NCBI RefSeq assembly: GCF_965363235.1
Contig: NC_134846.1
Coordinates: 2,299,001-2,363,000 of the forward strand
DNA length: 64,000 bases
Direction: 5' to 3'
Source: Mytilus galloprovincialis
Taxonomy: Eukaryota > Mollusca > Bivalvia > Mytilida > Mytilidae
Part shown: in pieces, positions 3,540-60,480 of the stretch
Layout: each line of letters starts with the position of its first letter
Position numbering within the stretch: the stretch's first letter is position 1
Position numbers and translations under genes: made by a program
The notes under the pieces: generated by a model
Told to the model about the DNA's origin: nothing
The model's input: only the letters and a program-made list of their open reading frames with translations
Database searches by the model: none

Positions 3540-6399
3540 CTAATTAATAGTATAACGTCAATTATTAAAAAAACTATTTGTTATTTTAAGTTTAATGTTC
3601 TGCAACTGGCTAAATATAACATCTCTCATTCAACAACAGTCAAAATATGTGCTATTTTAATACTTCTGGATTATCAAACATCTATTTTAAGGTTAATATT
3701 TAACTGGAATATAATTAGTATATGTTGTGTATAAGGTGTAATTTTGTACATGTTATAATTTTTATAATGCAAAAAAAATAAAAATTTATAACATCAACAA
3801 AAGTACCTTATACATGTTAAAGCATATACAAAATATTGTTTACAAATGGTTTTAACTTTAAAAATTTAAATATAAACTGAATAAAGCAGAATTTACATTT
3901 AAGATTTATTGAATAATAAGGAACCATAATCAAACCCTCATTATAGTGTTTGCTTTAGGTCACACATATCCCAAAGTTTCAGACTGAATGTTTTTATTGC
4001 TTCACTATTTGTATTGGCATAATGCATATATATATATATACAAGTCTAAATTGAAAACTACATTCAAACCTATGATTGGCTAGGATAAAACACGCATTTT
4101 TAATACGTGTGCACGTAAAACAAATTTCATCGTAGAAAGGTCTAAGTACAGCACAAACAACATTTTCCAAAAGACCAAAAACATGAAAAAGTATATTTAA
4201 ACAAAACGCATTTGACTAACAGGTCGAACAACTGATGTTCTTTAACCCTGCTGACGGCCATTGGCGATTGCTAAATAAAATTTATCACAAGATATAACAA
4301 AATGGATCTTAATATAACTTTAATACTAAACAGAAAATACTGCTGGTGATCCGATTGACAAATCTGTTGTAGAGTTGTCACTGGCTCAGACGTACTTATA
4401 AATATAATTATTTTCTGTGACTGTATCTTCCATTAATTTGTAGGATCCTTTTCTATAGATAATTTAGCTTATCTGTAGAATAACATGTTCTTGCCTTATA
4501 TATCATGTACTGTAGTACGACGTTAGATTAAAAACTGACGTGGAAAGGTAACACCCGGCCACCGAAAGCTTCATTTTTATGAAGCCCAGGTGATTGTGTG
4601 GTCTAGCGGGACGGCTACAGTGCAGGCGATTTGGTGTCACGATATCTTAGTAGCATAGGTTCAAATCCCGGCGAGGGAAGAGCAAAAAAAATAAATTCGA
4701 AAGCAAATTTACAGATCTAACTCTGTTGGGTTGATGGTTAGACGACTTGTATATATATACAAACCACATACATATTATCTCACAGTCTGATATGTGTTTT
4801 GGGATCGCTTCAATGGTATTTTCAACTCAACAAACAGTTATTCGATTTTGTTTAATCTATAAGCACACTTGGTTTTTTATAAATAAATTCAGATCTAACT
4901 TAAATGTTGATACATGTGACTGGAAATTAAATTAGACAATTATACACTTTATAGGCATTGAAGAAGTCGCTTTGTATCATTAAAAATGCAAACTTCTAAA
5001 ATTACCTTTATATATCATATCTGTATTTTTAGCAGAACAATCGTTTCTTCCCCATCGTATGTAAGTAGATCCTTGACCTATGGAGTAAAATTTATAAATT
5101 GCTTTTTAGGAAATTGTTTTTTGATTCTGTGCATTTATGCAACAATATACATTTATTTACATTATGAAGGCTTGTTCCCCAAAGAATATTCTTAATTCAC
5201 GAGAGTATCACAAGAAGGAATTTATTTTCCAGGGAATACATATCTTCGATTAATAGTAAACTCCAATGATTTTTTTATTCAAATAGAAAAAGTAGCGTTT
5301 TTGGCACCTGAAATCACCCCATGTTTCATGTCGTGGCCTTTTATAGCAGACTATTCAATATTGGTTCAACATTGTTGACGACCGTACGGTTGCCTTTAAT
5401 TGCTTAAATCTTCTTAATTTCACTATATCAATAAGTCATGCCACCATGTGACCACATGTGGAACAGGATCTGCCTACCCTTTCAAAGCACCTGAGATCAA
5501 CCTTGGTTTTTGTGTGGTTCGTGTTGCTTAGTCTTTAGTTTTCTATGTTGTGGCTTATGTACTGTTATTCGTCAGTTTGTCTTTGTAATAGTCATAGCGT
5601 TGTCAGTTTAATTTCGATCTATGAGTTTATTTGTTCTTTTGGTATCTTTCGTCCCTCTTTTTGAAAATATAATAATAAAGTACAACGTTACGAATTTAAT
5701 TTCTTGTTCTGGTTTTGAATTTAAACGTAGTCTTTTCTTAATGTGAGTACTGCAACAAGTTGTGCTAGTGGTAGAAAAATGCTACCGTTTTCCGTCTTAC
5801 ATGGTTTGGCAAAGGAAAGAAACGTATATTCCCGGACATTATTCGTTTTGATCTTCTGGTCAAAAACCAACATAATTCAGATTTTTTTTGCTGTAAAAAC
5901 TGCATACGTTTCTTGTCATATACCCTTAGATAGTGTACGATTGAAGGCCTATAAATAACAAAATATTTCGGAAAAAACGATCAAAACAATACGTGTTTGC
6001 CCCAAGGTGTATGTGTAACATTAACATGATGATAAATACCTGTTTCCACTTACTAATTAGGCTCTGTTCATGTTTTAATTTTTCATCGGCTAAACCTTTG
6101 CGCAAAGACGTAATTTCAACTTCTTGTTGTGAATATTGTAACTGCAATTTGTCCTGTATCAGCTTTCCGTTTGCTAACTCATTACGCAAAGACGTTATAA
6201 CACCTTGTTGTTGAGAATATTTCAAATGTAGGTCCTGAAGTAACATGTCCATATTTGTTAAGCGTTTTCCAATAACATCCGGGTCATTGAGAAGTATACG
6301 CTTTGACTGTGAGTTTTCAGACATCGGTTCCTCACATTTTGCCAGTATAACATTTGACACCGTCAACATAAATACAATAAGCATCTCAGTTTTCCACAT
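3070..6399 (-). CDS. Gene 1: secreted coiled-coil protein with short-chain collagen C4-like C-terminal domain
   Basis: Three exons on the minus strand: 6399-6054, 5077-5006 and 3539-3070, joined with phase-1 GT-AG introns to about 295 residues. Exon 1 gives a signal peptide (hydrophobic core MLIVFMLTV), the motif RILLNDPDVI and a coiled coil made of two near-identical 28-residue (four-heptad) blocks, each with YSQQ and ITSLR. Exon 2 carries STYIRWGR and one Cys. Exon 3 carries a compact Cys-rich domain (MLCLPDNPE, YGTEF, CVLCRS, CYPGWKKEYNG, YICVDAHP, CGS-CPPY, CIVCSK). This architecture matches mollusc proteins annotated as short-chain collagen C4-like, here with a coiled coil in place of a collagen stretch. 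A secreted, oligomeric extracellular protein is inferred; ligand unknown. The donor of exon 1 is chosen at A|GTAAGT because it gives the correct phase; a second GT 14 nt downstream would not. A tRNA-derived SINE sits in intron 2. Confidence 0.85.
4411..4758 (+). mobile_element. tRNA-derived SINE, composite, copy 1 (in intron 2 of gene 1)
   Basis: An RNA polymerase III promoter is visible: A box TGGTCTAGCGGG at 4599-4610 and B box GGTTCAAATCC at 4658-4668, 59 bp apart. The tRNA-like part (about 4592-4677) sits in the middle of a 348-bp unit with a conserved upstream arm (GTAGGATCC, GACGTGGAAAGGTAACAC) and a downstream arm ending in a TA run. A second copy lies inverted at 46316-46672, with the same order and boundaries. 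Confidence 0.8.
5006..5077 (-). CDS. Gene 1 exon 2 (72 nt, YIRWGR motif)
   Basis: Flanked by CCATAG| and |GTAATT. It encodes QGSTYIRWGRNDCSA and continues to MIYK, completing Gly codons on both sides in the usual family pattern. Length is identical to exon 2 of the two paralogues. Confidence 0.85.
5330..5400 (+). repeat. Degenerate core of retroelement tail A
   Basis: GTGGCCTTTTATAGCAGACTA followed by GTTGACGACCGTACGGTTGCC is recognisably the central part of tail A (GGCCTTTTATAGCTGACTA, GGCCGTACGGTGACC), without its 3' end. Confidence 0.5.
5430..5664 (+). repeat. PLE 3' tail family C, in intron 1 of gene 1
   Basis: Carries the ordered family C landmarks: CATGTGGAACAGGATCTGC, GCACCTGAGATCA, GGTTCGTGTTGCTTAG, GCGTTGTCAGTTTAATTT and the terminal GGTATCTTTCGTCCCTC. 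The family is tied to Penelope-like reverse transcriptase by the copy at 13185-13700. Confidence 0.7.
6054..6399 (-). CDS. Gene 1 exon 1 (signal peptide and coiled coil)
   Basis: Start ATG at 6399; a TATAAATA box lies about 90 bp upstream. Encodes MWKTEMLIVFMLTVSNVILA as signal peptide, RILLNDPDVI, then a duplicated coiled-coil block. The open frame runs past the donor into the intron to 5926, which is read-through and not coding. Confidence 0.82.
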
Positions 6400-40300: not shown

Positions 40301-40370
40301 CATGTACCTCCTATAATGCCTGTACTTGGTAGTACATATAAAACTATTATCTTTTCTTTCGTTTATTCTC
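37300..40370. other. Long stretch without recognised features
   Basis: Frames at 37548-37973 (+) and 37622-37885 (-) overlap each other and show no domain. A small palindrome (GAGCGATT ... AATCGCTC, 38371-38434) is the only structure seen. Confidence 0.4.
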
Positions 40371-40379
40371 AAACATATT

Positions 40380-40770
40380 TTTCCTCCCTTAAGATATTTC
40401 ATTCTCCCATAGGATATTTTTATCTGTAATGATTTGCTCTCCCATTGGATTTTTATTCTCCATTAGGATTTTTTTTATCCATTAGGATTTTTTTTATCCA
40501 TTAGGATTTATTTTATCCAATAGGATTTATTTTTTACCCTTTGGACTTTCTTCCTCCCACTGGATTGTTATTCTGTATTGAAATCCTTTAGGATTTTTAT
40601 TAATCCTATCGGATTTTTTTAATTTCCCACAGGATTATCATATTAAACAAATATCCTATAGAATAACAATATATACTGTAGAAAATGCTTTTATTTCTCC
40701 TAAAGGATTTTTTTGGTCTCAACGGAGAAAACATATCCTGTAGGATATTTTTATTCTCAGGCCTAATGGA
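40380..40770 (+). repeat. Left subterminal array of ATCC/GGAT short repeats
   Basis: About fifteen irregular 20-30 bp units of the type CCATTAGGATTTTTTTTAT, CCTATAGGAT, CCCACTGGATTG. Many are imperfect palindromes around ATA or CATT. The same motif recurs at the right end of the candidate element. Confidence 0.7.
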
Positions 40771-40788
40771 TTATAAATCCCATAGACG

Positions 40789-40806
40789 TCGCGTACGGTG
40801 TTGGTG
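40789..40806 (+). repeat. Left 18-bp inverted repeat of the candidate transposon
   Basis: TCGCGTACGGTGTTGGTG, exactly complementary to 47053-47070, 6.25 kb apart. Confidence 0.85.
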
Positions 40807-41119
40807 ATAATACGGGTTTTGCTTTCCAGTTCGCCTTTATTGCATTTGTTAGAAGTTTCGGAATTGATAACTATATAAATGCATATATCAAAATGTGCGT
40901 AAAAAAAAGTAGAAATGGAATTTACCTTAAAATCATTACTTTTTTCATTTTGTAAGTCAATTGATCCCTTATAATACTGATTTTGAGCGTGTGGACAAGT
41001 AACACACAACAAATGACCAGTTTTGTTTTAGTGCTCTTCTCATTTTTTTAAAACTTAAACAAAACAAAAGGGGTATGTATAGAAAGAGCAGTCTTTGGTG
41101 CTGATGACGTATGTTTTAT

Positions 41120-41130
41120 TTATGACGTCA
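41120..41130. promoter_or_regulatory. Possible CRE-type site upstream of the transposase-like gene
   Basis: TGACGTCA lies about 80 bp before the candidate first ATG at 41206, with a second half-site TGACGTA 20 bp before it. A single short match, so weak evidence. Confidence 0.3.
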
Positions 41131-41827
41131 TCGTTTACTGGACGCGTCTGACCGGGACGAAAGGTGCACTCTATTTTGTGGCAGGCCGGAAAACGTAAAA
41201 AAAATATGGAAAGGAGAGAATGTAAGAGTCATTATAAAAAAAATCAAATATATAATTCCATAAAATGAAACATCGTTTTATTCCTTATAATGACAAGGAA
41301 AAAACAGTAAAGTTTTGTTACAATATTCCAAAAGATGGTTGCAGAATTTCAATCTCCGGCGCAGAGATCACATATCCGTTCCGTTCAATACTTTGTAACA
41401 CTACACTCAATATGATAGGTCAAATATAACTGTTTTAGTGGGGGAAAATAATTTGAAAGTATAGCACACAACAAACAACATAACAAAAAATTAATTTTAA
41501 AGGATTCATTTGAACCTATTTTCGACTATTTGTCGAATATATTAACGACACAATCAGCGCATACTTTTGTCTAGTCATAATGTCACACCATGCTTTTTTT
41601 ACTTGTTTTGACGTTATATACGTTCTTTTACATATAACATGTAGAGTCCTTAACGTCGCAACTCTTTTGCCGACTTATTTCATGTAAATCTATGATTTGT
41701 ATCCGTTTTTAGTGTTCATACTTGACATTAAATTTCCTTTTATTTGCAGTTGGCAATTTATATTAAATTATTTAGAGTAGTAATTCTGAGTTTGCTTTCA
41801 ACAATTGATACTTAACCTTTGATACAG

Positions 41828-41971
41828 GTGATGAAATAAACGCTTCAATTGATATTGTTATCCAGAAACTTTCAAAAGCAGATAGAAGAAAACAGCAGAA
41901 AAGAGAGTGGTTCGAAAAAAATAAAAACAAACTGTTACAATCAAAGAAAGAGAAGAGATCTTTGCTCAAAG
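41828..41971 (+). CDS. Exon A of the transposase-like gene
   Basis: Acceptor TTGATACAG|GTGATG and donor CTCAAAG|GTGATA enclose 144 nt open in one frame: DEINASIDIVIQKLSKADRR, then QQKREWFEKNKNKLL. It is Lys/Arg-rich like the start of exon B. Joining G|GT to exon B keeps the frame (LLKGLKSVSAS). Confidence 0.65.
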
Positions 41972-42448
41972 GTGATACAATATAATTTAAATACTGTCAT
42001 TTCTCTTTTAATGTAACTGCACTCGAAAATAATATGTGCCGCTTTTGCCTTTAATTTGGTCCTACACGTAGCAAGCGTGCCTGCATAGACATGTATGTTG
42101 CACCATGAAACAAAATAAATCTGTCTCTTCAAAAGTCGGTACTTTTTATTACACACAAAAACCAAAGAACTTTAAAAATTTAACATAATTATTTAGTTGA
42201 AGAACCATTTACTAATATATTTATATATATATATATACATATATCTAGTACATTATATAGTGCGTGCACGTACAGTAATTATTTTTATGAACACATTTTG
42301 GCTTCAAAAGGCTCCACTACCCTAGGTCGATTATCCCTACATATAAGTTATTGTCAATGATATTATATAGGCAAAGAACGAAAATACACAAATAAACAAT
42401 TTACAACTTTTCCATTATAAATCGCGTGTAAATATATAAACAACTAGA

Positions 42449-42690
42449 ACACACCCGCGAAATCGCGGGCATTCAGAGCGTAGTAGTATGTAAAGTGTTG
42501 TTGGAAGAATTTTGTAAAATACAGAATGACTGGAGAATTTCAGCAAAAGTATCATAAGTCATAGGTTATTGGGGACAGGAAAATTTTATTTTTTACCCTC
42601 CACCTTTATTTCCAAAGTTCCCAATTTTTGGGTTTTTTTTACCCTCCACCTTTATTTCCAAAGTTTCCAATTTTTGGTTTTCTATCAATT
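42449..42690 (+). repeat. Mussel dispersed repeat and a 46-bp tandem pair
   Basis: ACTAGAACACACCCGCGAAAT and CGCGGGCATTCAGAGCG start a repeat I recognise from mussels. At 42595-42677 a unit of about 46 bp (CCCTCCACCTTTATTTCCAA and on) is present twice in tandem. Confidence 0.55.
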
Positions 42691-42736
42691 TCAATATGAA
42701 CATACATTTAGTATGTTATGAACATTTATTTAAGTA

Positions 42737-43008
42737 AGGAGCCTGTAATTCAGTGGTTGTCGTTTGTTTATGTGTTACATATTTGTTTTTCGTTCGTTTT
42801 TTGTACATAGATAAGGCCGCTAGTTTTCTCGTTTGCACTGTTTTACATTGTCATTTCGGGGCCTTTTGAAGCTGAGTATGCGGTATGGGCTTTGCTCTTT
42901 GTTGAAGGCCGTGCGGTGACCTATAGTTGTTAATTTCTGTGTCATTTTGGTCTCTTGTGGAGAGTTGTCTCAACATGGCAATCATACCACATCTTCTTTT
43001 TTTTTTTG
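42737..43008 (+). repeat. Retroelement tail family A, inside the transposase-like gene's intron
   Basis: GAGCCTGTAATTCAGTGGTTG, AAGGCCGCTAGTTTTCTCG, CGGTATGGGCTTTGCTC, GGCCGTGCGGTGACC and CATACCACATCTTC with a T run. It is one of the better preserved copies. Confidence 0.75.
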
Positions 43009-43586
43009 TAATCAATGAATTTTGTAAAAGATTTAATGACTGTATCAAAACTTCACATGAATAATTTTAGCGCTTATCTGTATATTATGAACATTCATTA
43101 CTATATAAATAAAGCGTATTTACTTTCAATTCTAAGTTTACTAATCGATCCATGGTGATCATTGATATAGTATACAGACCCTCTCTATTTTATCAACTCT
43201 GTGACCGCCGTGGATAGTAAACTTGAAAATGATAGCAGATAAATTTCTGAAAATACACTTTATTCGTAGTATATGTATGTTGAAAGTATACAGAAAAACG
43301 CAAACCGGAAGTCTAATCTGACTTAAAATTTCGTACAATGACGGGACAATATCCGGATGCCTTTTTTCTCGTTTTTCTCCTAAAATAACTCAATCTGAAT
43401 AATCATATGAATGGATGACAAATGCGACTATGCACTGTACCTATAGGACACAGAGGCGTGTTAATTAATTTATTGTGGAAAGAAGAGAAGCGACACCAAA
43501 AATGAGGTCTTCTCGTTTAATAGTATAGATATCATGCATTTATACATGTAGGTACATAGTATATTAAAAACTACTCGATTTTGTAG

Positions 43587-46193
43587 GTTTAAAATCTGTA
43601 TCTGCTAGCACCATTCGCAAAAGAAAACAAAGAGTGAAAGAATTTATAATAAAAGAAAATTGTAAGAACAGAAAAAGAACTGAGAGGGAGCAAAATAAAT
43701 TAGAATGTGAAAAGCGGCAGAATTGCCTTGAAAAGAAGCGCGAATATCAAAGAAGAAAAAGGGCAAGCTCTTTTATTACAACAAGAAAACCTGAAAAAAT
43801 CCCACCTTTCTCTAACAAAATGAGAAAACACAGAGCAATAAAGAAGTTAAGACAAAGCCTTCCAGACTCACCAGGAACGCGCATTTCTACACTAGCAGCT
43901 TATCTTAGAAATGAGAAATCACCAACAATAAAAACACTGCAAAGCTCCAACATCATATACTCACCAGAGGAAAATAATGAAAATCAACTAGGTCTTGCTG
44001 TTCTTGAAGATATGAAAATAGCAATTTCAGAGACAAAACTTAAAAGAACAGACCAGGCTCGATTATCCATGAATGTTTTAAGCGCGTCAGTAAGCGGTAA
44101 CTGCGTAAAACAATTACGATCAAAACTGTCATTAGCAAAAAAATTGGGTGTACCTGCAAGGCGTATAAGCTCCGGATTTACACTCCGGAATAAAATTTCT
44201 AAAACTTTATCATCGTCTTATGTATATATACAAAAAGAAAAGTAAGAACAGATGCTCTTTCGGATGCAAATAAAAACTTAATTCATGACTTTTGGTGTTC
44301 TTCGGAAAATTCCCATCCGACCGGAAATAAAAATGACGTGAAAAGAGTGCGTATTGGACCCAAAAAATATTCGAGTCACCATGTCCAAATATTAGAAAAG
44401 ATTCAATCTGAAGTTTATATAGACTTTAAAAATAAATACCCGTCTGTTAAAGTTTGTCAAAGTTTGTTTGAACGCTGTAAACCTTATTTTGTTCGTGCTG
44501 CTAGCACGAAAGATCGTGTAACGTGTTGTTGTAGATATCATTTAGAAATGAAACATGTTTTTAAAGCTGCCATGAACAATCGTAAAAAATGTAACCAAAA
44601 TCTGCCAAGTGACAGACAATTTCCCGTTTATGCTTCTGTGACTGATATGTGTAATGCAACTTTATGTAATCCTAATGAAAGCAGGTTTCATGACAAGAAA
44701 TGTCTAGATAGAAATTGTCCGAATTGCGGAGTAAAACTTCTCAATTTCTCCAATGAAGAACTAAAAACTGATGACTCCAGTGAAAATATTAATTGGGAAT
44801 GTTTTGAATATATCAATCAAAATACAAAACACGGACCGAAAAAGAAACTTATGCTTGTGAAAAAAACACAAATCCTGGCTTAATGGTTCAGTACCTACAA
44901 AAATTACTTGGAACATTTCCGGCGCATAATTTTAGAGCAAAATGGCAAAACAATCATTAAAACATTTAGTTACAAATTTACCGCAAAATCACGTGATATC
45001 TGTGCATGACTATTCTGAAAATTATAAATGCAAAGAGAGAGACGAACTACAATCAAGCTATTTTCAAAAAACAGAAGCGTCTTTACACGTTTCTCTGTTA
45101 TACAGACATGCTATATTAGAAGTTGACGGTGTCGAAAGCACCTCTGAAGACCCTTATATAGTAACAGAAAACTTTTTTGTAATATCAGAAGATGAAAAAC
45201 ATGATCAATATTTCACCTTTCAAGTTCAAAAATATATATCTGAATATTTGTCATCAATATCATGTCATGTGCATACAATGCACGAGTTTTGCGATAGATA
45301 CAGTTGCCAGTACAAGAGCAGACATTGCTTAGGTCATCTTCGAAAAACATTAGATGAACTAGGTTATGTTAATTTTATTCGGAACTTTTTCGAAACGTCT
45401 CATGCGAAAGGCCCACAAGATGCCGCAGGAGGACTCATAAAAAATCAGACAGACTTAGCAATCGTTCGAGGAAGAGCAACTATACAAAATGCTCGTGATT
45501 TATTTGAATTTGCTAAAAGCAATCTATCCGTTCCGAAATCAAGTCATTGTAAACGTCGTTTATTTAAATATACTGAAAACATCAATAGAAATTTCCCGAT
45601 GTTTTATAAACCAATAACAGGAATTCGCAGCGTTCATCAGGTAGTTGTTAATAATGACCATCTTTTAATAAGATCTTTATCATGTTACACTTGCAATAAT
45701 TGTTTAGAAGGTAACATTAACGAATGCGAAAACACAAACATACTAGGAAGTTTTTCTCCGGTACCAATTGTCCCGGAAATCGGAACGGTTGAAGAAGATC
45801 AAACTGACGAGAATGATATGGAAGTCCCAATTAATGAACTAATATCTAAATCCACAATATTTGCGGTTCTTTGTGATGATGATGATTTTGATTATTACCT
45901 ATTAAAAGCTCAAACTGAAACTTATCAGTTAACGAGTCGTGAAACAGATAGTTGGGGGGGGGGGGGGGGTGTCTTATCAACCCGGAACTAAGGTAATCAA
46001 AGGAAACTATTTTATGCAAGGTGAAAATCCACTCCATTTCAAAATGATTGAAAGAAAGTATGGGCTCGTTCCTTCAAATTCATGCTCATATATTTGCACT
46101 GATGTTTGTGTACGTAATGGTGAAGTTAAACTTCCTGAAGATATTCACCAGAATATACTTAAATGTGTTGAAATGAGTACTTATGTGTTATAG
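43587..46193 (+). pseudogene. Exon B of the transposase-like gene
   Basis: Acceptor ATTTTGTAG|GTTTAAAATC. Long open segments 43589-44245, 44338-44883, 44942-45991 and 45970-46193 lie in shifted frames but encode consecutive parts of one protein. Coding-type composition runs unbroken across the shifts (for instance VRTDALSDANKNLIHDFWC directly after 44242), so these are indels and not introns. Confidence 0.72.
45954..45969 (+). repeat. 16-G homopolymer inside the coding region
   Basis: Sixteen consecutive G. The frame before ends in a Gly run and the frame after resumes with GTKVIKGNYF. Length change here, real or from sequencing, explains the last frameshift. Confidence 0.9.
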
Positions 46194-46315
46194 ATTATTT
46201 GAATAAAAAGTCAAAATATTGTAAATATGTAAATATTTTAGCATGGACTAAAATAATTAGAAATGGGTCTTGATTGAGATAGACTAAAGTATATATCTGC
46301 ATGACAAATATAAAC

Positions 46316-46666
46316 ATATATATATATATATATATACAACTCGTCTAAACATCAACCCAACAATGTTAGATCTGTAAATTTGCTTTCGCAAATTTTTGGT
46401 TCTTCCCTCGCCGGGATTCGAACCCATGCTACTGTGATATAGTGACACCAAATCGCCTGCACTGCAGCCGTCCCGCTAGACCACACGACCACCTGGGCTC
46501 TCAAAAAAAGAGCTTTCGCTGGCCGTGTGTTACCTTTCCACGTCAGTTTTAATCTAGCGGCGTACTGCAGTACATGATATATAAGGCATGAAGATGTTAT
46601 TGTAACAGATCAGCTAAATTATCTATAGTAAAGGATCCTACAAATTAATGTAAGATACAGTCACAG

Positions 46667-46672
<6 letters not shown>
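46316..46672 (-). mobile_element. tRNA-derived SINE, composite, copy 2
   Basis: On the minus strand: A box (complement of 46472-46483) and B box GGTTCGAATCC (46414-46424), the latter closer to consensus than copy 1. Same 5' and 3' arms as 4411-4758. The element ends in TA-rich sequence on both sides. Confidence 0.82.

Positions 46673-46738
<66 letters not shown>
46670..46738. repeat. (TA)n microsatellite
   Basis: About 33 uninterrupted TA units next to the SINE. Likely grew from the element's TA-rich end. Confidence 0.9.
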
Positions 46739-46740
<2 letters not shown>

Positions 46741-47052
46741 GGGTAAAAAAATAGACTGAAAATAATCTCAACTCAATATCAATATTCAATATCTGGTCTA
46801 TTGAGACATGGTTCTTAAATGTTCCTCATAATTCCTAGCAGTTACAATGTAATGTGTTGTATGAATATTTGTGAATCATTGAAACAAGTAGGAACGAAAA
46901 AAAATAGTTTTGTAAAGAGTTGCTCAGCAATCTAAAAAAAAATGGCACCATACTTTAAACCTTATTTTATTATCGGCACGAAATGAAATAGTTTTACGAC
47001 GTTATTTATATAATGCATGAAAATAACGTCAAATTAACGTTACCAAAACTAA

Positions 47053-47070
47053 CACCAACACCGTACGCGA
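47053..47070 (-). repeat. Right 18-bp inverted repeat of the candidate transposon
   Basis: CACCAACACCGTACGCGA, complement of the left copy at 40789-40806. Followed at 47114-47165 by CCTATAGGAT and CCTGCAGGAT repeats. Confidence 0.85.
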
Positions 47071-47456
47071 TTTTAATATCCGAAAATATTCTTCTGGATA
47101 ATGGTTTTATCCTATAGGATTTCTCAAAATCCTGCAGGATTTAAAAAAAAATCTATGGGAGAAAATAATATCCTGATTTTGTCATTGCTTTCACTGCAGT
47201 TACTAACCAGGTAAGCTACACAAAAGTTTTTTTGTATTGTTTTACCTATCGCCAGAGGTACATTATTGACAAATTTGATGATTCTACCGTTAAAAAAGTG
47301 TGGTTCCAATTTGAACTCGTAAGAAGTGAAAATTAATCCAATAACATGTTAAATGATATTTTAGAACTACAATTGTTATAGAAGTAAGGTACATAAAATG
47401 AATATTATCAAAGAAAAGAAGTTTATTGGACTTAATATAATAGATCGAATGATACG

Positions 47457-47708
47457 GTGCTTTTTGTCCGCGATTTGCTTTTTGTCCGCTTTTGCTTTTT
47501 GTCCGATTATTTTGCTTTTTGTCCGATACTTTTGCTTTTTGTCCGTTGCTTTTTGTCCGTTTTGCTTTTTGTCCGATAATTTTGCATTTTGTCCGATACT
47601 TTTGCTTTTTGTCCGTTGCTTTTTGTCCGTTTTGCTTTTTGTCCGATAATTTTGCTTTTTGTCCGACACTTTTGCTTTTTGTCCGTTGCTTTTTGTCCGT
47701 TTTGCTTT
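47457..47708 (+). repeat. Minisatellite TTTTGTCCG, 70-bp higher-order unit, copy 1
   Basis: Built from short TTGCTTTTTGTCCG units with tails ATAAT, ATACT, TTGC or none, arranged in a repeating 70-bp order (for example GTCCGATAAT at 47571 and 47641). Starts with ATACGGTGCTTTTTGTCCGC as does the 57.4-kb copy. Open frames here (LLFVR, AFCP repeats) are repeat artefacts. Confidence 0.88.
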
Positions 47709-47960
47709 TGAGCTCACCTGGACCATAGGACTAAGTGAGCTTTTCTCATTTTCTCATTATTCGTCGTCGTCATTAATTTTTACAAAAATCTTCTCTTCTG
47801 AAACTACTGGCAAAATTAAAGCAAACATGGCCAAAATCATCCTTAGGGTATTTAGTTTCAAAAAAGTATCCGATGACCCCGCCCAATAATTAAGATGGCC
47901 GCAATATCTAAAAGAAGAGCATCGCATAAAATGTAGATTTTGGCTTATATATCTGAAACA
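47709..47960 (+). repeat. Bivalve dispersed repeat F, adjacent to the minisatellite
   Basis: AGCTCACCTGGACCATAGG, AAGTGAGCTTTTCTCAT, CGTCGTCGTC, CTACTGGCAAAATTAAAGC and GACCCCGCCCAATAATTAAG. A second copy follows the minisatellite at 57630-57960 in the same order. Confidence 0.75.
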
Positions 47961-56989: not shown

Positions 56990-57252
56990 ATAAAGCAAAA
57001 TTATCGGACAAAAAGCAAAACGGACAAAAAGCAACGGACAAAAAGCAAAAGTTTCGGACAAAAAGCAAAATAATCGGACAAAAGGCAAAACGGACAAAAA
57101 GCAACGGACAAAAAGCAAAAGTTTCGGACAAAAAGCAAAATAATCGGACAAAAGGCAAAACGGACAAAAAGCAACGGACAAAAAGCAAAAGTTTCGGACA
57201 AAAAGCAAAAGCGGACAAAAAGCGAATTGCGGACAAAAAGCACCGTATCAAT
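56990..57252 (-). repeat. Minisatellite TTTTGTCCG, copy 2 (inverted)
   Basis: CGGACAAAAAGCAAAA units with the same higher-order arrangement as copy 1, in reverse. Ends AAAAGCACCGTATC, the complement of the other copies' start. Confidence 0.88.
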
Positions 57253-57365
57253 CGAAGAAAATTAATATAATTTATGTTCATTCGTCACAACTCGGCCGAT
57301 TCCGTACTACGGCGAGAAGCGGTTTAACCCGCGGTTTTCCAATTTATATATGATAGCTCGATCTC

Positions 57366-57628
57366 GGCTGATACGGTGCTTTTTGTCCGCAATTTGCTTT
57401 TTGTCCGCTTTTGCTTTTTGTCGGATAATTTTGCTTTTTGTCCGACACATTTGCTTTTTGTCCGTTGCTTTTTGTCCGTTTCGCTTTTTGTCCGATATTT
57501 TCGCTTTTTGTCCGACACTTTTGCTTTTTGTCCGTTGCTTTTTGTCCGTTTCGCTTTTTGTCCGATAATTTTGCTTTTTGTCCGACACTTTTGCTTTTTG
57601 TCCGTTGCTTTTTGTCCGTTTTGCCTTT
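57366..57628 (+). repeat. Minisatellite TTTTGTCCG, copy 3
   Basis: Begins GATACGGTGCTTTTTGTCC. With copy 2 it forms a palindrome with arms of about 260 bp and a 113-bp spacer. Confidence 0.88.
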
Positions 57629-58978: not shown

Positions 58979-60480
58979 TTAAATCCGATGCAAAGACCCT
59001 ATAAGTGAATCAATATTAAAGCCAAAATATGCAATATTTAATGACCTGACAACAGTATCGTAACTATATCCCTCCTTAATAAGTCTGTTTAAAGGTTTTG
59101 TTAGCTTTTGGGGTGAATACTGACATTTTTGTGCTTTGTAAAGAATATTACCATAAAACATTGGATGTGAAATACCTGAACGTATAAGATATCTGTATGT
59201 TGAGTTATATTTACGAATTATTTCCTTGTACCGATAATAAATTTAGTAAATGTTTTGACTAGTTTGTGATATCGAAAACCCTGGTGTAATAATTTTTCAG
59301 TAATACATAAATTTCTCTCGCTAAAATCTAACATGTCGTTACATACACGAGCGAATCGTGCAAGTTGAGATATATAAACACCATAAGATGGTGACAAGGG
59401 AACGTAGCCATCTAAAAATGAATAATTAACGATAGGAAATGAAAATTCATCTCTTTTATCATAAATTTTTGTATTAAGCTTCCCGTTAATGATATAGATA
59501 TCACGATCGAGGAAAGGACATTGGTCATTGTTAGTATAAGCTATATTTAAAGTAAGTTCAACAGGATAAATTTCTTTAGTATACATACTGAAGTCGTCAT
59601 TATTGAGAGCCAATATATCATCGAAAAATCTAAAAGTATTGTAAAATTTTTGTATCAAATGTTGTTTCGATGGGTATTTGCTGATTTTAGTCATAGTTAG
59701 TAACTCGTAACAATACAAAAACAGGTCCGCAATAAGTGGTGCACAGTTAGTCCCCATTGGAATTCCAATAACTTGACGATTTAGGGAATCTCCAAAGCGA
59801 ACAAAAATGTTATCAAGTAAAAATTCAAGCGCAAATATAGTATACATAGTTCATTTTTTTTTGTTGCTACTAAAACATGACCGAAAAGAGTTTGAACATA
59901 TGTATTGGTATTCTGACTTTTTAAATGTCCAATTATTTAGGGATGTGATTTTTTTTCTTAATATGAATATGAGGCAAAGTGGTATATAAGGTAGAAAAAT
60001 CATAACTTTGAACAGATTCAAAATCACCAATATATGCATGCAATTTATCAAGTACTTCCAACGAGTTTTTGACACTCCAAAAGTAATTAATTCCACTATT
60101 TTCAAAGGCCTTATTTGAACAATTTATTATCAGGTTTTTGATTGTACCAAGTGTATCTGTAAGTAGAATAGACAATTTAGAAATGCAACAATGGCTTGAA
60201 GATGAAATAAATCTATACTTGTAATGTGTTTTGTGTAGCTTTGAAAGCCAGTACATACATTTGTAGTTGGGACTTTCATTGTATTTGGTTGTTATGTAGC
60301 TAAAAATTTGTGTTTGTTACAGATATCGTTTTCTGAAAATGAAGTCAGTTGGAATGTTGGTGAATTCGTGATTTCCTTTTGCAGAACCTCATTGTAAAAT
60401 TTACGTCAAACAATAATGATATTTTTAGCGTCTATATCAGCCGGGAGAAAAACAAATTCCTTGGCTAGTTTTTAGTTTAG
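58979..60480 (-). pseudogene. Penelope-like reverse transcriptase, frame-broken
   Basis: Minus strand, 5' to 3': FVFLPADIDAKNIIIV (near 60450), ITNSPTFQLTSFS, YWLSKLHKTHYKYRFI and SYDFSTLYTTLPH (60256-59960), then YICSNSFRSCFS, LEFLLDNIFVRFGD, GIPMGTNCAPLIADLFLY (about 59766), the catalytic-type FRFFDDILALNNDDF (DD at 59622-59617), CPFLDRDIYII, GVYISQLARFARVC, KLLHQGFRYHKL, and after a shift YYRYKEIIRKYN, SGISHPMFYGNILYKA and KPLNRLIKEGY, ending at 58979. Stops or shifts occur near 60420, 60110, 59945, 59860 and 59240. F replaces the usual Y/I before DD. No GIY-YIG endonuclease motif was recognised downstream. Confidence 0.82.

Follow-up and report, generated by a model that had tools for sequence, protein, structure and literature searches.

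The window analysed here, 64,000 nucleotides of Mytilus galloprovincialis DNA (contig NC_134846.1, positions 2,299,001 to 2,363,000), lies on contig C9 and contains at 40785-47070 what is, with a probability of roughly 0.93, a decayed copy of a mussel cut-and-paste DNA transposon, whose related intact copies encode a D-D-D transposase. The case is read from the DNA and its translations, through the termini, the target duplications, the other copies in the genome, the gene, and the conservation of its acidic triad. A first-pass annotation of the same DNA had proposed a DNA transposon with a transposase-like gene; its inverted repeats are joined here by target duplications and further copies, whereas its view of flanking GGAT/ATCC arrays as subterminal repeats and of the element as autonomous has been given up.

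The terminal repeat is an 18-bp perfect inverted repeat, TCGCGTACGGTGTTGGTG, at 40789-40806 (+) and 47053-47070 (-) with a separation of 6,246 bp, exactly where it had been reported and far beyond chance, as its 17-bp core (up to 3 mismatches) has 2 matches in the window where 0.02 would be expected. The window also has inverted repeats that are about as long or longer, and in our reading these connect dispersed repeats or minisatellites; the 18-bp repeat marks where a DNA transposon ends, on the sequence evidence given here. At the right side, the sequence beyond the repeat continues as GCGACGTC in a closely related copy (L016) and reads GCGATTTT in the window, where the right terminus without CGTC leaves the target duplication not callable.

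The 17-mer CGCGTACGGTGTTGGTG has 92+92 exact occurrences in the genome, compared with 0 for the control. Among the 100 of these 184 places that were listed (contigs C1-C8), 60 form 30 convergent pairs, and 29 pairs were fetched, the thirtieth having exceeded the length limit; L016, which was chosen by its gene and not by the 17-mer, brings the complete insertions to 30. Only bases outside the 17-mer count as new evidence on the ends, and these extend the ends to GACGTCGCG, with GACGT on the left in 25/30 and ACGTC on the right in 28/30. Direct repeats stand just outside the ends of most insertions (3 bp in 15/30, 4 bp in 4/30, neither in 11/30), a total of 19/30; permuting the right flanks in 2000 trials left 3.3 duplications of 3 or 4 bp on average and never more than 8. 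The duplicated sequences vary and include TAT, ATA, TCT, AAA, and CTT; reading the duplication as a palindromic ACGT site was given up once repetition was seen in the bases outside GACGTC. Across the 29 pairs, flanks of 200 bp per side gave only four matches between different insertions (22-149 bp, 72-100%). The copies, as far as their sequences tell, have terminal inverted repeats in common at unrelated sites, with short duplications of nearly fixed length, and the search for copies and alignment of ends that the first-pass annotation had proposed has yielded gene-bearing copies, termini, and 3-4-bp duplications.

Close gene-bearing relatives number at least two (40 of 7,894 genome candidates were scored), namely L015 on C11, 97% identical over the main exon, and L016 on C10, 95% identical, whose gene has one stop. 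Homology to the window starts at 40785 in L015, which is without a right terminus, and runs from 40775 to 47070 in L016. These limits bear on the GGAT/ATCC arrays, which were found at the places reported and are clearly non-random, since 8/8 of the ATCCNNNNGGAT sites in the window fall inside the two arrays and 100 simulated sequences held a mean of 0.51 and a maximum of 3. If the arrays were subterminal repeats bound by the transposase, the element would extend from ~40392 to 47175, and their symmetry about the gene, their strong departure from randomness, and a weak inverted similarity between the two arrays are in keeping with this. The homology, however, keeps to the limits just given, neither L015 nor L016 has an exact ATCCNNNNGGAT site in its 10 kb, and the target duplications stand directly outside GACGTC in 19/30 insertions, which makes the subterminal-repeat explanation highly improbable. 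Because both other close copies are without the arrays, these are not part of the element and are best read as one GGAT/ATCC minisatellite split by insertion: the element would have landed in or beside this minisatellite and then decayed, so that arrays would lie on both sides. The left flank also matches the right flank in two of the other insertions (L061, 99% over 178 bp; L072, 82% over 160 bp), as if these elements too had inserted into tandem repeats, like the window copy in the GGAT array.

When compared with 212 family proteins at E 1e-6, 29/29 fetched pairs showed no coding similarity. Repeats that occur without the gene, an outcome that the first-pass annotation had set against its own reading, are to the letter what was found in these pairs (58 of the 184 repeat places), but the ends and the middle are still shared with the window. 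The gene-less copies typically keep the left end of ~560 bp (window 40785-41348) at ~83%, parts of 41411-42075 at 71-79%, and the last 95 bp (46976-47070) at ~91%, and their left ends are a median of 95% alike (minimum 64%). Most of the 29 retain, at 71-79%, stretches that overlap the putative first exon, and termini of this kind also occur in L016 and in a second subfamily that carries the gene. Because the left end, the middle stretches, and the right end are shared with the window copy, the 29 gene-less copies are read as a family of non-autonomous derivatives. One of them (L074) has, in minus orientation relative to the locus, a 688-amino-acid frame that presumably resembles a reverse transcriptase and is probably a nested long interspersed nuclear element.

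The gene itself is present in the window copy as two putative exons linked by GT...AG sites (Table 1), from which splicing of the kind suggested by the first-pass annotation would follow, but it is broken. Full-length relatives match it successively in frames 2, 1, 3, 2, and 3, giving four breaks at ~44225-44240, 44865, 44955, and 45957-45968, the last being a poly-G run. The DRYSCQYKSR that had been taken as a motif of the protein is a mutated form, as the window has CDRYSCQYKSR where the family has TDGC(S/A)xQYKSR, with two changes at the nearly invariant G and C; the Cys/His cluster described with it is real and conserved in the family. The nearest named proteins are those of Mytilus edulis, among them P0197 (99% over 221 core columns), P0003, and P0005; such names by themselves would point to a mussel, most likely M. 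edulis, as host. The window copy, with its reading frame broken four times, two near-invariant residues mutated, the right end damaged, and other sequences nested inside it, is dead as judged from its sequence, and the autonomous element described earlier is in fact a degenerate copy.

Protein searches gave 145 relatives from the core open reading frame and 293 from the alignment, 120 being listed in each case. Among the relatives listed are proteins of mussels (Mytilus edulis, M. coruscus, M. galloprovincialis, and M. trossulus), other bivalves (Mizuhopecten, Argopecten, Saccostrea, and Mya), and cnidarians (Nematostella, Stylophora, Acropora, and Exaiptasia), together with proteins from Sedimenticola bins, which are taken as host DNA; the longest members have ~850-970 residues. 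One Mytilus edulis gene model (P0012) joins the transposase to a PF03712 monooxygenase domain and is probably a fused annotation. The best explanation of the intact relatives is a single large transposase of ~850-905 residues, modelled as a basic N-terminal coil, a Cys/His zinc-type region, an RNase H-fold D-D-D core, a second Cys cluster, and a BAH-like barrel, in this order. The homologous C-terminal domain folded alone with a predicted local distance difference test score of 95.7, and BAH domains top the Foldseek and VIA-align lists. In the core, three invariant acidic residues fall within a predicted RNase H fold, the second Asp just past strand 4, and these would form the catalytic site. 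The RNase H-like nuclease of the first-pass annotation is supported by the predicted fold, whereas its third residue was probably misplaced: in 30/30 aligned sister proteins the E of ETSH is replaced by A, while the D of SHAKGxQDAAG is nearly invariant among them, so that this D is most likely the third catalytic residue. The sister proteins, reached with a query sequence written by hand, have the motifs DFxENYxCxxQDEIQSAHW, SDGPSSQFKN, and SHGKGPVDGIGG; they share the same three nearly invariant Asp over 262 aligned columns (hhalign probability 99.8) and differ in the Ala at the E of ETSH. No family name is given on any of the 120 sister-protein matches listed. Two sister-family members, P0220 and P0224, differ in the C-terminal region, where the motif WCVVxYExxLFPGEI may mark another small barrel replacing the BAH-like domain.

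The second gene-bearing subfamily, whose protein is 58% identical to that of the window subfamily in the core, includes many intact copies. A genome search with P0016, in which 73 of 641 candidates were scored, gave 78 matching places, many of them on different chromosomes and almost equal in score. Open frames of at least 880 amino acids with a stop-free match occur in 17/78 rows, or 16 after C11:64502684 is discounted as a partial match with stop-bearing rows alongside; these 16 intact loci, not all of the second subfamily, encode 880-905 amino acids (nine of them 902) and lie on several chromosomes, and a direct comparison of two loci of the group gave 99% identity over 3.7 kb. At C9:62149728-62154723, coordinates derived by hand from L076 and L099, lies a 4,996-bp copy with GACGTCGCGCA termini, its ends being GACGTCGCGCAAGATACTGGTG and GACGTCGCGCAAAATACTGGTG and its duplication TAT; the termini recur in a second copy, on C4, where there is no clean duplication (AAA/AAT). 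Both subfamilies share the terminus form GACGTCGCGYA....TGGTGA. Over the aligned 4,289 of the 4,996 bp in the intact copy, the sole sense frame above 120 amino acids is that of 902 amino acids, with antisense frames of 162 and 124. Such intact, nearly alike copies suggest recent movement, and on this sequence evidence the transposon, dead in the window, is apparently alive elsewhere in the same genome.

The abundance of copies also bears on whether the gene could be a domesticated host gene with a cellular function, next to which the inverted repeats would be unrelated. The conservation of full-length proteins across bivalves and cnidarians could be explained in this way, but the 78 places in one genome, the pair at 99% identity, and the broken window copy speak against it, as do the termini and duplications that flank the gene in L016 and in the C9 copy. 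In a tree of named proteins (50/59 rows kept; 9 dropped for a core span below 170 positions or no core match), Mytilus proteins form more than 10 separate clusters, some beside those of other bivalves, with 11/44 inner branches unresolved. Because of the many genome copies and the flanking termini and duplications, a domesticated gene is refuted for the family as a whole and carries very little probability, though single domesticated members may exist.

In the mechanism that a cut-and-paste transposon of this kind would use, the transposase would bind the 22-bp termini (GACGTCGCG...TGGTG), its D-D-D metal site would provide the chemistry that cuts the element out, and joining to the target would be staggered by 3 bp, or sometimes by 4 bp. 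Tethering of the complex to chromatin may fall to the BAH-like domain, and the gene-less derivatives with the same ends would be mobilised in trans.

Table 1. Features of the transposon copy and its surroundings (window positions)
Feature	Position	Strand	Remarks
GGAT/ATCC array, host flank outside element	40404..40780		absent from both other close copies
Left terminal inverted repeat	40785..40806	+	GACGTCGCGTACGGTGTTGGTG; same end at other copies, GACGT in 25/30 left ends
Putative first exon, basic N-terminal stretch	~41827..41971	+	open frame, GT donor at 41972
Nested dispersed repeat in intron, outside transposon proper	42443..43531		at least 37 other places at 88-99%
Transposase gene, main exon	43587..46193	+	closest proteins P0003, P0005 (named Mytilus edulis)
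First catalytic Asp (putative), HDYSENY	45008..45010	+	D493 of P0159, 79/79 rows; strand 1 of predicted RNase H fold
Second catalytic Asp (putative), DRYS for DGCS in window only	45293..45295	+	D588 of P0159, 80/80 rows
Third catalytic Asp (putative), SHAKGPQDAAGG	45419..45421	+	D630 of P0159, 80/80 rows; nearly invariant in sister family
C-terminal BAH-like domain, frame broken at poly-G run	45815..46190	+	predicted fold
Insert with SINE-like sequence and TA microsatellite, downstream of gene	46282..46769		absent from L016
Right terminal inverted repeat	47053..47070	-	final bases CGTC altered in window copy
GGAT/ATCC array, other host flank outside element	47078..47174		absent from both other close copies

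The 1.09-kb dispersed repeat nested in the intron begins near CACCCGCGAAATCGCGGG, and its insertion site is uninterrupted in L015 and L016. In the downstream insert, parts of 46373-46680 match 4409-4720 in inverted orientation, ~42 kb apart; both stretches look by eye like a tRNA-like short interspersed nuclear element (SINE), and ARAGORN calls no tRNA in them. Elsewhere in the window, a 210-amino-acid open frame at 59218-59850 (-) with GIPMGTNCAPLIADLFLYCYE and RFFDDI is presumably part of a reverse transcriptase, and a minisatellite of TGCTTTTTGTCCG units occurs at 47453-47710 and 56990-57620, the two being mutually inverted.

Sequence searches of Pfam, NCBIfam, and PDB gave no credible match. 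Pfam transposase models exist for hAT, MULE, Harbinger, piggyBac, P, Merlin, CACTA, KDZ, and Zator, and none of these was among the hits of 45 members (E 0.1) or 30 members (E 1); in the 45-member scan there were single-member hits to Transposase_32 (E 0.0052) and Zn_Tnp_IS91 (E 0.045). DUF7869 was set aside as too weak to use (query sequence written by hand, E 0.0089; 1/30 sister proteins, E 0.07). No relatives were confirmed in the prokaryote and viral contig collections, where 35 and 9 stretches matched a pattern, and the terminal 17-mer matched viral contigs exactly six times, which is about chance level by rough estimate. Among the papers listed in literature searches, judged by titles and abstract openings, no description of the transposase family was recognised. 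The family is without a Pfam model and works like a DDD/E cut-and-paste element; remote kinship may exist despite the absent Pfam match. A further, tentative step, at somewhat less than even odds, would make it an undescribed animal superfamily of bivalves, cnidarians, and a second core branch, defined by DD41D spacing with HDYSENY/TDGCxxQYKSR/SHAKGxQDAAG, GACGTCGCG termini, 3-bp duplications, and a fused BAH-like domain that would direct integration towards marked chromatin, and still active in living mussels. Database proteins now uncharacterised, hypothetical, or unnamed would become transposases and could be removed from mussel gene sets. The predicted chromatin-reader-type domain would make the transposase a natural, testable case of chromatin-guided integration, and since one mussel has intact, near-alike copies on several chromosomes, a working element is likely and a tool possible.

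Among known systems, Tc1/mariner elements such as Mos1 duplicate TA and have DD34D spacing, whereas the present family has DD41D and varied 3-4-bp duplications, and no mariner or Tc1 Pfam model was among the hits of the scanned members. Sola has 4-bp duplications, in contrast to 3 bp in 15/30 and 4 bp in 4/30 here, and Kolobok duplicates TTAA, in contrast to 3-4 bp of varied sequence. KolobokP of bivalves is a DDD/E transposon that is rich in bivalves and whose inverted repeats are short, at most 18 bp, features shared with the window family; it differs in its long terminal direct repeats and His-Me nuclease (PMC9587614). The retroviral integrase core of Rous sarcoma virus, human T-cell leukaemia virus type 1, and human immunodeficiency virus type 1 is D-D-E and ~9% identical, whereas the family is D-D-D with terminal inverted repeats, and the one intact copy examined has no second long sense frame.

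The family may instead belong to a catalogued superfamily without a Pfam model (Academ, Sola, Dada, Novosib, or a Chapaev branch of CMC) that is known in Repbase and absent from the libraries searched, a prospect that comes close to an even chance. The earlier remark that no superfamily was known with these exact motifs agrees with the lack of matches in the protein libraries searched. A large zinc-bearing transposase would also fit Academ, but the Academ motifs would differ from those of the window family, Pfam scans of 30 full-length members gave no XPG nuclease or helicase family, and the one intact copy examined has its single long sense frame. AcademX is stated to have duplications of 3 or 4 bp, the pattern of the window family, and AcademH 9-10 bp (PMC10045372); Academ is described among the richest elements and, in the molluscs analysed, as apparently restricted to bivalves (PMC10294476). 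Because of the 3-4-bp duplications and the bivalve richness, Academ is the first known superfamily to test.
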